Shown here one piece after another: positions 14,380 to 51,782 of a stretch of 64,000 nt of DNA. Origin of the DNA: Streptomyces zingiberis (GTDB taxonomy: Bacteria > Actinomycetota > Actinomycetes > Streptomycetales > Streptomycetaceae); NCBI RefSeq assembly GCF_012034935.1, contig NZ_JAATEN010000004.1:62001-126000 (forward strand). Reading direction: 5' to 3'. Every line of letters begins with the position of its first letter. Position 1 is the stretch's first letter. Under the pieces are notes generated by a model. It was not told the origin of the DNA, made no database searches, and was given only the letters and a program-made list of their open reading frames with translations. Both the position numbers and the translations under genes were made by a program.

Positions 14380-14393
14380 TGGGAGCGCTCCCA
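14380..14393. promoter_or_regulatory. CebR box upstream of the LPMO gene
   Basis: The exact 14-bp palindrome TGGGAGCGCTCCCA, the established CebR operator of Streptomyces. It places the AA10 enzyme in the cello-oligosaccharide regulon. Confidence 0.92.
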
Positions 14394-14566
14394 TTTCCTC
14401 GGACGGTCTCCCTCCACCTGACCGCCCGGGAGCGGGGAGCGGCGCCACGCAGTTCCACGTCAGTCGGACACGATCCGGCGGCGCGGAGCCGCCCGGCCGG
14501 CCGCATTCCAGCGGGCCGCCCGGACCGGTCCCGGCCCGCCGGATGACCCCCAGAGGAGACCCCCAC

Positions 14567-15292
14567 ATGTCCACTCGGCAGTCGGACCGCAAGAAGTCCA
14601 CGGTCCTCCGCACCTCCCGCTCGGCGGCCCTCGCCGGAGCCGGGCTGTTCGCGCTCGTCATGGCCTCCATGCCGTCCCCCGCGGCGGCCCACGGCGCCAC
14701 GATGATGCCGGGCGCGCGGAACTACCTCTGCTACGAGGACCTGATCCGTAACAACCACCAGACGCCGTCCAACCCGGCCTGCGCCGCCGCGGTCCAGGCG
14801 ACCGGCACCACCCCGCTCTACAACTGGTTCGGCGTCCTGGACTCCAACGGCGGCGGCCGTACCGTCGGCTACATCCCCGACGGCAAGCTGTGCAGCGGCG
14901 GCGACCGCGGCCCGTACAACTTCTCCGCCTACAACGCGGCGCGCGCGGACTGGCCGAAGACGCACCTCACCTCCGGGGCCAACGTCCAGATCAAGCACTC
15001 CAACTGGGCGCACCACCCGGGCAAGTTCGACGTCTACATCACGAAGAACGGCTACAGCCCGACCAAGTCCCTGGCCTGGAGCGACCTGGAGAAGCTGCAG
15101 ACCGTCACCAACCCGCCGCAGAACGGCGGCGCCGGCTCCAACGGCGGTCACTACTACTGGAACCTCCAGCTGCCGCAGCGGTCCGGCCAGCACATCGTCT
15201 ACATCCACTGGACCCGTTCCGACAGCCAGGAGAACTTCTACTCCTGCTCCGACGTCGTCTTCGACGGCGGCAACGGCAACGTCACCTACTGA
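14567..15292 (+). CDS. AA10 lytic polysaccharide monooxygenase, single domain, probably cellulose-active
   Basis: A 241-residue secreted copper enzyme. The signal peptide ends AAA-HG, so His42 becomes the mature N-terminus and pairs with His150 (in NWAHHPG) as the histidine brace. Segments such as LYNWFGVLDSN, DWPRTHLTSG-like and RSDSQENFYSCSDVVFDGG match cellulose-active AA10 proteins of the CelS2 type. There is no carbohydrate-binding module, so it is a single-domain form like S. coelicolor LPMO10B. ATG 14567 follows AGAGGAG; an upstream GTG lacks support. The CebR box upstream agrees with a cellulose role. Oxidation position (C1 or C4) cannot be read from sequence alone. Confidence 0.95.
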   Translation: MSTRQSDRKKSTVLRTSRSAALAGAGLFALVMASMPSPAAAHGATMMPGARNYLCYEDLIRNNHQTPSNPACAAAVQATGTTPLYNWFGVLDSNGGGRTVGYIPDGKLCSGGDRGPYNFSAYNAARADWPKTHLTSGANVQIKHSNWAHHPGKFDVYITKNGYSPTKSLAWSDLEKLQTVTNPPQNGGAGSNGGHYYWNLQLPQRSGQHIVYIHWTRSDSQENFYSCSDVVFDGGNGNVTY

Positions 15293-24167: not shown

Positions 24168-24181
24168 TGGGAGCGCTCCCA
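24168..24181. promoter_or_regulatory. CebR box upstream of the GH44 gene
   Basis: An exact TGGGAGCGCTCCCA palindrome about 270 bp before the GH44 start. Confidence 0.9.
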
Positions 24182-24446: not shown

Positions 24447-26234
24447 ATGCGCACGGTCCGGAAAGCCACCCTCGCGGCGCTCGCGCTGCTGCTGGCGGGT
24501 GCCGCCGTCCCGGCTCAGGCCGGGCCCGTCCACCCGGCGGCCGCCGCGGCGGGACCCGCGCTCACCGTGGACACCTCCATCGGACGGCACGCCATCGACC
24601 CGAACATCTACGGCATCAACTTCGCCGACGAGGATCTCGCCGCGGACCTCCGGCTGCCCGTCCGCCGCTGGGGCGGCAACGCCACCACGCGCTACAACTT
24701 CACGCTCGACGCCTACAACGCGGGCCACGACTGGTACTTCGAGAACCTGTACTACCGCAACGGCACGGCGGATCTCCCCGCCGGGTCGGAGGCCGACAAG
24801 TTCGTCGAGCAGAACCGCCGCACCGGCACCGAGACCCTGCTGACCGTGCCGATGATCGGCTGGACCACGGCCGAACGCAACGACGCCTGCGGCTTCTCCA
24901 TCGCCAAGTACGGGCCCCAGCAGGGCAGTGACGCCCAGTGGCGCCCGGACTGCGGCAACGGCACCGCCTCCGACGGCACCGAGATCAGCGGGAACGACCC
25001 CACCGACACCAGCGTCCGCATCGGCCCGGAGTTCAGCGGCGCATGGGTCCGCCACCTCCGGGAGACGTTCGGCGCTGCGGACGACGGCGGTGTCCGCTTC
25101 TACAACCTCGACAACGAGCCCGACCTCTGGCACGCCACCCACCGCGACGTCCACCCGGAGGGCGCCACTTACGAGGAGATCCGCGACGCCACCTACGCCA
25201 CCGGCGCCGCCCTCAAGGACGCCGACCCCGGCGCGCGGACCCTCGGCCCGGCGGGCTGGGGCCTGAACTCCATGATCTACTCCGGCCTCGACCAGCAGGT
25301 CTGCAGCCGCGAGGGCGGCAGCTGCTGGTCCGACCCGCCGGAGCGCGCCGCCCACGACGGCCTCCAGTTCGCCCCCTGGTACCTGCGGGAGATGCGGGCG
25401 TACGAGGAGCGGACCGGCCGCCGCGTCCTCGACTACTTCGACGAGCACATCTACCCCCAGCAGCAGGGCGTCGCCCTCGCGGACGCCGGTGACGCCGCCA
25501 CCCAGGAGCTGCGGCTGCGCTCCACCCGCCAGCTGTGGGACCCCTCCTACGTCGACGAGAGCTGGATCAACCAGCCCGTGCAGTTCATCCCCCGCATGCG
25601 TGACCTGATCGACGAGCACTACCCCGGCACGAAGGTCGCGATCACCGAGTACAACTGGGGCGCCCTGAACCACATCAACGGGGCCCTCGCCCAGGCCGAC
25701 GTCCTCGGGATCTTCGGCCGTGAGGGCGTGGACCTGGCCACCCTCTGGTCGCCGCCGGGCGCCGGCGACCCCGGTGCCCACGCCTTCCGCATGTTCCTCA
25801 ACTACGACGGCAAGGGCGGCCGGTTCGGGGAGACCGGTGTCCACGCGGCCGGCGCGGACCAGGAGAAACTGTCGGTGTACGCGGCCGAACGCGGCTCCGA
25901 CGGAGCCCTCACCGTCATGGTCGTCAACAAGACGACCCAGGACCTCACGGCGCCGGTCACCCTGAAGGACCGCGGGCGGGCCCGCACCGCCGAGGTCCAC
26001 CGCTACAGCCGGGCCGACCTCACCGCCATCACCCGCGAGGCGGACCAGGCGATCTCCCGCCGGGGCACCTTCACGGCCACCTTCCCCGCCTACTCGATCA
26101 CCGAGTTCGTCGTGCCCGCCGCCGGGGAGGGCTCCCTCACCGCCCGGCCGCCCACGGCCCCTCCGGCCACCGCCGGGGCGGGCCCCATCCCGCCCGCGGT
26201 GGGCCGCGAACCCGGCGGCCACGTGGTGCGCTGA
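24447..26234 (+). CDS. secreted GH44 endoglucanase/xyloglucanase
   Basis: A 595-residue extracellular enzyme. The signal peptide (residues 1-26) ends AQA. The GH44 catalytic TIM barrel begins with the family hallmark VRRWGGNATTRYN (residues 72-84). Glu224 in LDNEPDLW is the expected acid/base and Glu401 in ITEYNWG the nucleophile. A beta-sandwich domain follows the barrel (about 470-565), then a short Pro/Ala-rich tail and no carbohydrate-binding module. Family members cut mixed beta-1,4-glucans, CMC and xyloglucan. The CebR box upstream ties it to the cellulose regulon. ATG 24447 follows GGGAAAGGGG. Confidence 0.93.
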   Translation: MRTVRKATLAALALLLAGAAVPAQAGPVHPAAAAAGPALTVDTSIGRHAIDPNIYGINFADEDLAADLRLPVRRWGGNATTRYNFTLDAYNAGHDWYFENLYYRNGTADLPAGSEADKFVEQNRRTGTETLLTVPMIGWTTAERNDACGFSIAKYGPQQGSDAQWRPDCGNGTASDGTEISGNDPTDTSVRIGPEFSGAWVRHLRETFGAADDGGVRFYNLDNEPDLWHATHRDVHPEGATYEEIRDATYATGAALKDADPGARTLGPAGWGLNSMIYSGLDQQVCSREGGSCWSDPPERAAHDGLQFAPWYLREMRAYEERTGRRVLDYFDEHIYPQQQGVALADAGDAATQELRLRSTRQLWDPSYVDESWINQPVQFIPRMRDLIDEHYPGTKVAITEYNWGALNHINGALAQADVLGIFGREGVDLATLWSPPGAGDPGAHAFRMFLNYDGKGGRFGETGVHAAGADQEKLSVYAAERGSDGALTVMVVNKTTQDLTAPVTLKDRGRARTAEVHRYSRADLTAITREADQAISRRGTFTATFPAYSITEFVVPAAGEGSLTARPPTAPPATAGAGPIPPAVGREPGGHVVR

Positions 26235-31222: not shown

Positions 31223-31236
31223 TGGGAGCGCTCCCA
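31223..31236. promoter_or_regulatory. CebR box upstream of the CBM2 gene
   Basis: An exact TGGGAGCGCTCCCA, 66 bp before the ATG of the membrane CBM2 gene and in the shared region with the divergent esterase. Confidence 0.92.
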
Positions 31237-31302
31237 TTCCTGGCGGTGCCCCGCCCCCACGCGTGCCGCCGGGCCCCACCCCCGAAGGGAGAAGCACCAC
31301 CC

Positions 31303-31914
31303 ATGAACCAGACCCTGGGCTCCCCGCCCCCGGAGCCCGGCAGCGAACCCCGCACCCGCCGGCGCCTCCTCCCCCGGCTGGCGCTCTTCGGCGCGCTGGT
31401 CGTCCTCCCCGTTCTCCTCCTCGCCCTCTTCAACGGCTCGGGCGGTGAGAAGCCCGGCACCTCGGCGAAGGTGGCCACGGCCGACGCCGCCGCCGACGGC
31501 GAGCGGACGGCCGGCGACCCGGACGGGGCCGACGACGAGGCCGCTGGCCCCGAGGCCGGCGAGCAGGGCGAGCACGGAAGCCACAGCGGCCACGGCGGAG
31601 CCACCGGCGCGAAGCCGACCTGCTCCGTCACCGTGAAGGACACCCCCAAGGGGGACGGCTACCGGGCGGCCGTGACGGTCACCAACACCGGAGACACGGA
31701 GATCGACAACTGGATGATGCACTCCAGCATCTCCCCGGACGCCGAGATGGGGAAGTACTGGAAGGCGGTCTACGGCAGTTACGGACTGGCCATCACCTTC
31801 GGCAACACCGAGCACAACGGGACGCTCGCGCCCGGCGCGTCCACCACCTTCGGCTTCGTGGTGAAGAACGGCACGGCGCCGCCGGCCCCGGCCAACGTCT
31901 GCATGGTCCACTGA
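31303..31914 (+). CDS. membrane-anchored CBM2 protein, no catalytic domain
   Basis: A 203-residue protein with a short basic cytoplasmic tail (TRRRLLPR), one uncleaved-looking TM helix (about residues 26-44), an acidic then His-rich linker (45-104, with EHGSHSGHGG), and a single C-terminal CBM2-like domain (105-203). The domain has the Cys107/Cys200 pair, VTVTNTGDTEIDNW, KYWKAVYG and GTLAPGASTTFGF signature elements. Two of the usual surface aromatics are present (Trp137, Trp153); the third position is His171 (NTEHNG instead of a Trp-Asn). It probably displays a cellulose-binding module on the cell surface. ATG 31303 has AAGGGAGAAG upstream. Confidence 0.85.
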   Translation: MNQTLGSPPPEPGSEPRTRRRLLPRLALFGALVVLPVLLLALFNGSGGEKPGTSAKVATADAAADGERTAGDPDGADDEAAGPEAGEQGEHGSHSGHGGATGAKPTCSVTVKDTPKGDGYRAAVTVTNTGDTEIDNWMMHSSISPDAEMGKYWKAVYGSYGLAITFGNTEHNGTLAPGASTTFGFVVKNGTAPPAPANVCMVH

Positions 31915-50155: not shown

Positions 50156-50169
50156 TGGGAGCGCTCCCA
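50156..50169. promoter_or_regulatory. CebR box, GH1 proximal
   Basis: An exact TGGGAGCGCTCCCA, 54 bp before the GH1 start codon. Confidence 0.92.
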
Positions 50170-50753: not shown

Positions 50754-51782
50754 TCAGGCGGACTCCCGCAGCACCAGCCGGGTATCCAGGACGACATGGC
50801 GCCTGACCGGGGACGGCGCGCCGATCTCCGCCAGCAGCACCCGCGCCATCGCCCGTCCCATCTCCTCCACCGGCTGCCGCACGGTCGTCAGCGCGGGGTC
50901 GGTGTGCCGGGCGATGGCCGAGTCGTCGAACCCGACGAGCGCCACGTCCTCCGGCACCCGCCGGCCCGCGGCGCGCAGGGCCGCCAGTGCGCCGGCGGCC
51001 ATCACGTCCGACGCGGCGAAGACGGCGTCCAGGCCGGGCTCGCGCTCCAGCAGCCCGGCCATGGCGCGGCGCCCCCCGTCCTCGGTGAAGTCCGCGTGGG
51101 CCACGAGCCGGTCCGCCCGGGCGACCCCGGCGCGCTCCAGCGCCTGGTGGAACCCGTCGAGCCGGCAGCGGGCCACGTGCATGTCCAGGGCGCCGGTGAT
51201 GGTGGCGACGCGCCGCCGTCCGGTGGCCAGCAGGTGCGCGACGGCCGTACGCGCCCCGCCCACGTTGTCGGAGTCGACGTAGGACACCGGCTCGAGGTCC
51301 GAGCGTCGCCCGCTCAGCACGGCCGGGACGCCCAGCTCCGCCAGCAGGTCCGGCAGCGGGTCGTGCGCGTGCACGGAGACGACGAGGACGCCGTCCACCC
51401 GCTGGGCCCGCAGGTACTGGGCGAAACGCTGCCGCTCCTCGGCGGTGCGGATCAGGGTCAGCAGCAGTTGCAGGTCGGTGCCGGCGAGTTCGGCTCCCAC
51501 GCCGCGCACGATGTCGGAGAAGTAGGGCTCGGCGAAGAGTCTGGTCTGCGCCTCCGGGACGACCAGGGCGATCGCGTCCGTCCGGTGCCCGGCCAGGGCG
51601 CGGGCGGCCCGGTTGGGCACGTAGCCGAGTTCGGCGACGGCCTCCTCGACCGCTGTCCTGGTCCGGTCGCTGACCCGCTGCGAGCCGTTGATGACCCGGG
51701 ACGCCGTGCCCCGCCCCACCCCGGCCCGCGCCGCGACCTCCTCCAGCGTCGGCCGGAGGCCACGCCGTCCGTTCACCGCCAT
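50754..51782 (-). CDS. cebR: CebR, LacI-family repressor of cellulose/cellobiose use
   Basis: A 342-residue LacI/GalR regulator. The HTH is TLEEVAARAGVGRGTASRVIN (about residues 12-32) followed by the LacI hinge (LGYVPNRAARALAG), then a sugar-binding domain with VGFDDSAIARHTDPALTTVRQP. Position beside cebE and the seven perfect boxes in this window support the name. It is released from DNA by cellobiose or cellotriose in Streptomyces. ATG 51782 is preceded by GGGGAGA. It is divergent from cebE, with its own box at 51920. Confidence 0.95.
   Translation of the reverse strand: MAVNGRRGLRPTLEEVAARAGVGRGTASRVINGSQRVSDRTRTAVEEAVAELGYVPNRAARALAGHRTDAIALVVPEAQTRLFAEPYFSDIVRGVGAELAGTDLQLLLTLIRTAEERQRFAQYLRAQRVDGVLVVSVHAHDPLPDLLAELGVPAVLSGRRSDLEPVSYVDSDNVGGARTAVAHLLATGRRRVATITGALDMHVARCRLDGFHQALERAGVARADRLVAHADFTEDGGRRAMAGLLEREPGLDAVFAASDVMAAGALAALRAAGRRVPEDVALVGFDDSAIARHTDPALTTVRQPVEEMGRAMARVLLAEIGAPSPVRRHVVLDTRLVLRESA

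Follow-up and report, generated by a model that had tools for sequence, protein, structure and literature searches.

A stand-alone CBM2 protein of Streptomyces zingiberis with a CebR box, copper-type residues and AA10-CBM2 LPMO relatives

A perfect CebR box stands ahead of a 203-amino-acid CDS (P0001) within the stretch of Streptomyces zingiberis DNA analyzed here (the window; 64,000 nucleotides of contig NZ_JAATEN010000004.1, positions 62,001 to 126,000). The question raised by this locus is what a CBM2 module could do under CebR when it is joined to no enzyme.

CebR box, regulator and domain content of P0001

The CebR box consensus is stated in the passages of PMC4890002 used here. The window contained seven perfect copies, against 0.73 expected at two or fewer mismatches, and none of 100 shuffles reached seven. 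Across the 6.49-Mb genome, 17 perfect boxes and 23 with at most one mismatch were identified, compared with a single match to the reversed pattern. Besides the box of P0001 there were 16 perfect boxes, 11 of which adjoined AA10 (three), GH1 (two boxes), GH6, GH9, GH12, GH44 or ceb-type (two) genes; three adjoined GDSL-lipase, GSDH and DUF4360 genes, and two had no obvious neighbor. Within the window, a GH44-family gene (24447-26234) had a perfect box 279 nt upstream (24168-24181), and a GH1 gene was preceded by two perfect boxes, at 50156 and 50241, 85 bp apart. Perfect boxes with no obvious cellulolytic target were seen at L064 (C8:40188), L067 (C34:321906) and L069 (C66:233219), the last near the DUF4360 gene.

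The LacI-family regulator gene of the window has as neighbors a BPD_transp_1 permease gene, a GH1 gene and a gene that, judged by sequence alone, is solute-binding-protein-like; this resembles the cebR-cebEFG-bglC arrangement given in the same passages of PMC4890002. P0001 thus has the two marks of a CebR regulon member, a 14-bp palindrome upstream and a cebR-type gene in the genome, the regulator being assigned by context. Since the perfect box (31223-31236) lies 80 nt before the ATG, cebR-type, transporter and GH1 genes share the window, and most of the other boxes (11 of 16) have the neighbors described, the CebR control proposed in an earlier sequence-only reading of this DNA is supported at the sequence level. 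Promoter and terminator scans found neither element.

The box could also serve the divergent esterase gene, with which P0001 has a common intergenic region (Table 1). None of the four closest esterase orthologues (68 to 77%) had a CebR box within 1.5 kb upstream, which leaves the box unsupported as an old feature of the esterase. Among 29 other esterase loci, four more distant ones carried a one-mismatch box 126 to 382 nt upstream, two had a perfect box at about 1040 nt and one had a one-mismatch box at 1310 nt; four of the loci were short.

The C-terminal domain of P0001 scored 51.7 bits against Pfam CBM_2 (PF00553; cut-off, 24), and C107, C200 and W137 aligned with conserved CBM2 columns, namely, the cysteine pair and the core tryptophan. 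In the AlphaFold2 model the CBM2 had a pLDDT of 83 to 96 by block of ten residues, compared with 48 to 74 for the remainder, and Foldseek matched CBM2 structures, including 6f7e. The profile search that the sequence-only reading had proposed for its CBM2-like domain, the model and Foldseek therefore agree. Its statement that no catalytic domain is present also held: profile searches of the 203 amino acids gave no match to a catalytic domain, AA10 included, and the match to the NCBIfam exoglucanase CbhB model reached 42.9 bits against a cut-off of 1950 and covered only the C-terminal model stretch 890-985 of 997. The linker (residues 44-105) is acidic and His-containing as described, with 12 acidic residues, four basic residues and three His, the last forming an HxxHxxH motif.

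Table 1. Features of the P0001 locus and of the proposed partner LPMO gene in the window
Feature	Position	Strand	Basis or remark
CebR box of likely partner LPMO	14380-14393	.	Box scan
AA10 LPMO, ScLPMO10C type, proposed partner	14543-15292	+	LPMO_10, 187.6 bits; 4oy7, E 3e-88; orthologue forms
PHB-depolymerase-type (CE1-like) esterase, divergent from P0001	30070-31005	-	Profile and orthologue searches
Perfect CebR box TGGGAGCGCTCCCA, palindrome	31223-31236	.	5' of ATG 31303
Leader with Shine-Dalgarno-like GAAGGGAG	31237-31302	+	Aligns with leader of S. lycii AA10-CBM2 gene
CDS P0001, 203 aa	31303-31914	+	ORF; third-position GC (GC3) 0.956
Hydrophobic helix, residues 26-43, without A-x-A|HG site	31378-31431	+	Resembles AA10-CBM2 signal peptides
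HxxHxxH, residues 91-97, in acidic linker	31573-31593	+	Motif count in linkers and tails
CBM2 domain, residues 107-203, with conserved cysteines 107 and 200	31621-31911	+	Pfam, alignment, tree, AlphaFold2, Foldseek
K116-G117, deletion point of W17-type cellulose-binding Trp	31648-31653	+	Trp in 63/63 AA10-attached and 77/77 other CBM2s
WMMH (137-140), candidate copper ligands M138 and H140	31711-31722	+	M138 in 42/63 AA10-attached, 0/77 other; H140 in 18/63, 1/77
W153, W54-type surface Trp, retained	31759-31761	+	Trp in 63/63 and 77/77
H171 at W72-type position	31813-31815	+	AA10-attached: W44, Y10, H5, Q4; others: Y48, W22, H6, G1
C-terminal CMVH (200-203), candidate copper ligands M201 and H203	31900-31911	+	M201 in 31/63 AA10-attached, 0/77 other; H203 in 25/63, 0/77
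LacI-family regulator, taken as CebR	50754-51782	-	Context: transporter and GH1 genes, own boxes; no CebR-specific model

Ancestry of P0001 among AA10-attached CBM2 domains

Without an AA10 domain or its exposed His1, P0001 is not an AA10 LPMO, and its relation to these enzymes runs through the N-terminus and the CBM2 alone. The best relatives of its CBM2 in several searches were C-terminal modules of AA10 LPMOs. For the pattern search, the best 80 of 180 matches were retained, and the matches are biased to LPMO CBM2s because the single pattern came from an alignment weighted towards them. From 176 loci entered into the CBM2 alignment, 152 gave a domain and 12 duplicate or short ones were dropped, which left 140 different domains, each 90 amino acids or longer, 63 AA10-attached and 77 others (AA10 status assigned by sequence pattern). 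In the tree of 141 domains, P0001 grouped with the LPMO-attached L031, L192, L107 and L035 (support, 100/94), nested in a clade of 40 AA10-CBM2 domains (100/91). Its exact sister is uncertain, since its branch is long (1.12) and another long-branch sequence, the xylanase-like protein L058 of the same genome, was also drawn into the LPMO clade.

Members of this clade share further features with P0001. Of the 37 clade members that were testable (3 of the 40 rows were not), 35 have a perfect CebR box, 171 to 300 nt ahead of the mature-His codon; that of P0001 lies 209 nt before the codon following the helix. Among the four nearest tree rows, L192 has the box, L031 is untestable, and L107 and L035 are the two exceptions. 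Residues 1-56 of P0001 aligned to the signal peptides of the CBM2 clade with a median score of 47 (n = 41). The medians of the three control sets were lower: 28 both for 25 ScLPMO10C-type AA10s and for 29 CE1-type esterases, and 32 for 27 other AA10s. The clade list for this comparison followed the tree and was extended by hand with duplicate loci and L211 to L215. Clade members made up 19 of the 20 best N-terminal alignments, the signal peptides of L106 and L107 being similar to the P0001 N-terminus, and the one high scorer outside the list, L233, is also an AA10-CBM2 protein. The leader of P0001 aligned with that of the S. lycii AA10-CBM2 gene (L106) with a score of 30, which 2 of 1,000 simple shuffles reached, uncorrected for the nine stretches compared. 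L123 followed with 6 of 1,000, and the remaining seven gave 46 to 610 of 1,000; an AA10 start was seen for L106, L110 and L123 only, and the stretches of L107 and L108 are not AA10 leaders.

Thus, the place of the CBM2 in the tree, the clade-wide CebR box and the likeness of the N-terminus and leader argue for AA10-CBM2 ancestry, and the simplest history appears to be an AA10-CBM2 LPMO gene whose AA10 domain was lost in frame. A split of the AA10 gene at 14543, with its CBM2 moved to P0001, was rejected, as ScLPMO10C-type CBM2s (L098 to L104) lie elsewhere in the tree. By its sequence affinities the donor is a different AA10-CBM2 type, absent among the AA10s found in the S. zingiberis genome. 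No direct donor of residues 1-106 emerged; the best match (L204; E value, 9e-6) is an unrelated helix-plus-linker protein. The P0001 architecture was found in none of 61 relatives or of overlapping sets of 392, 394 and 361 genus or family genomes, in which the best eight candidates per genome were scored at E limits of 1e-12 to 1e-13. Two further genome-contig scans also gave none, the one made with a single sequence yielding no relative, and of the plasmid records three had matches, none covering 80%.

Copper-type residues, N-terminal helix and cellulose face

According to the portions of Forsberg et al. 2025 (PMC12703677) used here, the CBM2 of ScLPMO10C binds copper, with Cu(I) preferred, via two Met and one His, at a site facing away from the cellulose-binding face, and AfLPMO10B carries an MMHH version that behaves likewise. 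The same portions define a copper CBM2 by one His and two Met lying no more than 8.5 Å apart, confine the MMH motif to 649 AA10-attached CBM2s and 34 CBM2-only proteins, and report that ascorbate depletion slows when free CBM2 is added to the catalytic domain, even more than with the attached CBM2, an effect that the authors attribute to free copper being scavenged or being released more slowly. Copper CBM2s are proposed there to protect LPMOs, and they may scavenge and deliver copper (PMC12703677).

Despite its long branch, P0001 has all four of M138, H140, M201 and H203, a full set present in 2 of 63 AA10-attached and 0 of 77 other CBM2s; three or more of the four occur in 29 of the 63 AA10-attached domains and in none of the 77 others. 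The regular expression M.*M.H, taken from the portions of PMC12703677 used here, matched the P0001 domain as well as 44 of 63 AA10-attached and 1 of 77 other domains. The columns differ, being 138, 140, 201 and 203 in P0001 versus 108, 127 and 129 in the ScLPMO10C type (read from its relative L100). The LPMO CBM2s used few Met/His arrangements, most of them pairing M138 with either CMxH or a VMVH strand, M201 with H140, or the ScLPMO10C-type CM with VMNH; 8 of 63 domains had none. The combination of M138 with a VMVH strand (columns 164-167), seen in 15 of 63 domains including L016, L012 and L124, is possibly a further copper-site arrangement. An attached REF-type AA10, a trait of copper CBM2s, is lacking in P0001, the AA10 being a separate gene at 14543. 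By their conservation, M138, H140, M201 and H203 are candidate Cu(I) ligands of the P0001 CBM2; at 45 to 52% identity they could partly survive by chance.

Taken with its ancestry, P0001 is read here as a CebR-controlled descendant of an AA10-CBM2 LPMO that is without the AA10 domain, a probably membrane-tethered, Cu(I)-binding CBM2 that would act in trans on LPMOs, and we give this reading an even chance of being right.

Its tethering depends on the N-terminal helix, which the sequence-only reading took for a single transmembrane segment. There is indeed one N-terminal hydrophobic helix: RTRRRLLPR precedes an 18-residue hydrophobic core, and the AlphaFold2 model places a helix at residues 30-44 with low confidence. 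However, its 19-residue Kyte-Doolittle value of 2.55 falls within the range (2.0 to 3.16) of 41 LPMO signal peptides taken up to the mature His, so hydrophobicity does not separate a membrane helix from a signal peptide here and was rejected as proof of an anchor. Anchoring is plausible, and the sole argument for retention is the missing A-x-A|HG cleavage site, present in the relatives, whose loss would probably keep P0001 in the membrane. If the helix were still a cleaved signal peptide, a free copper-type CBM2 would diffuse away and scavenge copper. Such a secreted form would suit the hydrophobicity, the candidate sites GSG|GE and SGG|EK (47/48 and 48/49) and, in the portions of PMC12703677 used here, the slowing of ascorbate depletion by free CBM2. 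Both sites would follow a Gly, though, and the A-x-A|HG-type site of the relatives is gone, which makes secretion rather unlikely. Gly at -1 makes a poor signal peptidase site.

The adhesin of the sequence-only reading, a membrane-anchored CBM2 that would hold mycelium to cellulose when cello-oligosaccharides are present, depends on the cellulose face of the domain. The three surface aromatics of a CBM2a are labeled W17, W54 and W72 here. P0001 does not have the three expected of a cellulose-binding CBM2a; one of the three positions is still Trp. The W17-type Trp, present in all 140 other domains, is deleted, a change that the sequence-only reading missed, and the Gln121 position, Gln in 63 of 63 AA10-attached and 48 of 77 other CBM2s, is Arg. 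The reading was correct that His replaces the third Trp; as a special feature, however, His171 was rejected, since 5 of 63 LPMO CBM2s have His at this position, as does the CBM2 of ScLPMO10C (6f7e), which binds Avicel with a Kd of 3.7 µM (PMC12703677, portions used here) and so makes His171 compatible with binding. The CBM2 fold and its Pfam score, the retained W153 and the CebR box would all fit an adhesin. Nevertheless, with the W17-type Trp deleted and the W72 type changed while four copper-type Met/His residues are kept, an adhesin is disfavored and we consider it unlikely. The weak cellulose face beside a complete copper-type face would instead direct P0001 to copper or the copper site of LPMOs rather than to cellulose.

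That P0001 is a decaying, functionless remnant of a truncated LPMO gene, retained by chance, is improbable: the long branch, the lost catalytic domain and Trp and the lack of an orthologue in the overlapping sets of 61, 392, 394 and 361 genomes would fit decay, but the 203-codon frame is intact where stops or frameshifts would be expected in a long-unselected gene, GC3 is high, the conserved cysteines, core Trp and all four Met/His residues are kept, the box is well spaced and the linker carries HxxHxxH.

Candidate LPMO partners and known systems

The AA10 genes found in the S. zingiberis genome number four; none carries a CBM2 and three have a perfect CebR box. One of these CBM2-less, boxed genes sits 16 kb upstream of P0001 (Table 1) and encodes a REF-like stretch, RSDSQENF, and ends ...GGNGNVTY where its relatives continue into a linker and CBM2. 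Orthologues of this window AA10 matched in 154 of 392 genomes, and the best 30 loci, its own included, were compared: seven end at the same point, six have a linker and CBM2, and 17 have a His-containing tail. Of the 24 CBM2-less forms, 22 had a box (one mismatch or none) no more than 450 nt upstream of the AA10 domain; of the six CBM2 forms, one did. HxxHxxH occurred in 11 of 17 HxxH-bearing CBM2-less LPMO10C-type tails, in P0001 and in 0 of 62 AA10-CBM2 linkers; of the 23 AA10 tails examined, six were without HxxH, namely, L059 and, with a CBM2 that the pattern had missed, L048, L170, L173, L178 and L182. These motif and box counts suggest that His-rich extracellular segments recur in the CBM2-less, CebR-linked LPMO10C-type systems of the genus.

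Among the 17 His-tail AA10s, 15 have a box of this quality within the same 450 nt, and 12 (L080, L083, L084, L086, L088, L090 to L092 and L094 to L097) end in a C-terminal hydrophobic helix and basic tail; L082, L085, L087, L089 and L093 have no clear helix. By this layout, ScLPMO10C-type AA10s with a His-linker and C-terminal helix are apparently membrane-anchored LPMOs. The fourth AA10 of S. zingiberis (L059, G000:C70:64043-64573) has a His-bearing acidic linker, a LAQTG sortase-like motif and a C-terminal helix, and its contig showed no CebR box at up to one mismatch. Second LPMO10C-type AA10 copies at G295:C373, G061:C23 and G180:C44 contain one TGA within the match, another copy in the same genomes being free of stops. 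No stand-alone copper-type CBM2 was found in the 22 genomes with a CBM2-less LPMO10C among 30 loci drawn from a longer list. In a synteny comparison with 38-40 kb from each of the four genomes carrying the short AA10 form, two of the 23 window proteins had matches: the AA10 and, weakly, one ABC transporter.

The domain architecture, the box, the place in the tree, the residue changes, the likeness to signal peptides and the presence alongside CBM2-less LPMOs are observed. From these features we infer copper binding, membrane tethering, induction and a partner LPMO for P0001, and the following course can be proposed. P0001 would have kept the CebR box, the signal-peptide helix and the copper-type CBM2, and its acidic linker would have gained HxxHxxH. 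Cello-oligosaccharides would release CebR, as the box implies, and P0001 would then be produced alongside the LPMOs found in this genome, all of which lack a CBM2. The former signal peptide would export P0001, which, without A-x-A|HG, would probably be held at the outside of the cell membrane; there, near the hypha, it may scavenge copper, supply it to LPMOs or shield their reduced copper site. A more specific proposal is offered tentatively: through loss of the catalytic domain and of one cellulose Trp, retention of the four Met/His residues and gain of HxxHxxH, an LPMO would have become a dedicated, membrane-tethered copper chaperone, or a redox shield, under joint CebR control with CBM2-less LPMOs.

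Among copper CBM2s of known type, 95% of those with the MMH motif are joined to AA10 in the account given in the portions of PMC12703677 used here, which makes substrate binding, copper scavenging and shielding hard to separate. In P0001, evolution seems to have parted the copper-type module from the catalytic domain and weakened its cellulose face while keeping CebR control. Together with the CBM2-less LPMO 16 kb away, P0001 makes trans action and copper supply to LPMOs testable with two small proteins.

A surface protein linked to cellulose is known in a streptomycete, AbpS of S. reticuli, which is like P0001 in that respect and is not known to be a CBM2 protein. Among the matches listed in searches of the open-licence literature, none described a CBM2-only protein as membrane-anchored or linked to CebR. 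The closest CBM2s are those of the Streptomyces isolate UBA8490 (L105), S. lycii (L106), S. ficellus (L107) and S. altiplanensis (L108), with 52, 47, 45 and 42% identity for L105 to L108; unlike P0001, all four have an AA10 domain, keep the W17-type Trp and lack HxxHxxH. The S. lycii gene resembles P0001 in its CebR box and leader, whereas for L107 and L108 the 700 nt searched contained no such box.

ScLPMO10C, the S. coelicolor AA10-CBM2 protein (4oy7, 6f7e), shares with P0001 the CBM2 fold, the presence of Met/His residues, a His in place of the third aromatic and a cellulose-active LPMO system; in contrast, P0001 has no AA10 domain, has its Met/His at other columns and has lost the W17-type Trp. 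The CBM2 of AfLPMO10B from Actinoplanes friuliensis likewise has two Met and two His, a likeness of composition, and differs in being joined to AA10 (PMC12703677, portions used here). The 34 CBM2-only MMH proteins of those portions, like P0001, have an MMH-type CBM2 and no other domain; they are described there with no mention of anchoring, regulation or the cellulose face. P0001 is thus a variant of the copper-CBM2 kind described in 2025 (PMC12703677), for which a copper-handling reading is bold, and its sequence suggests that it may belong to this class of 34.
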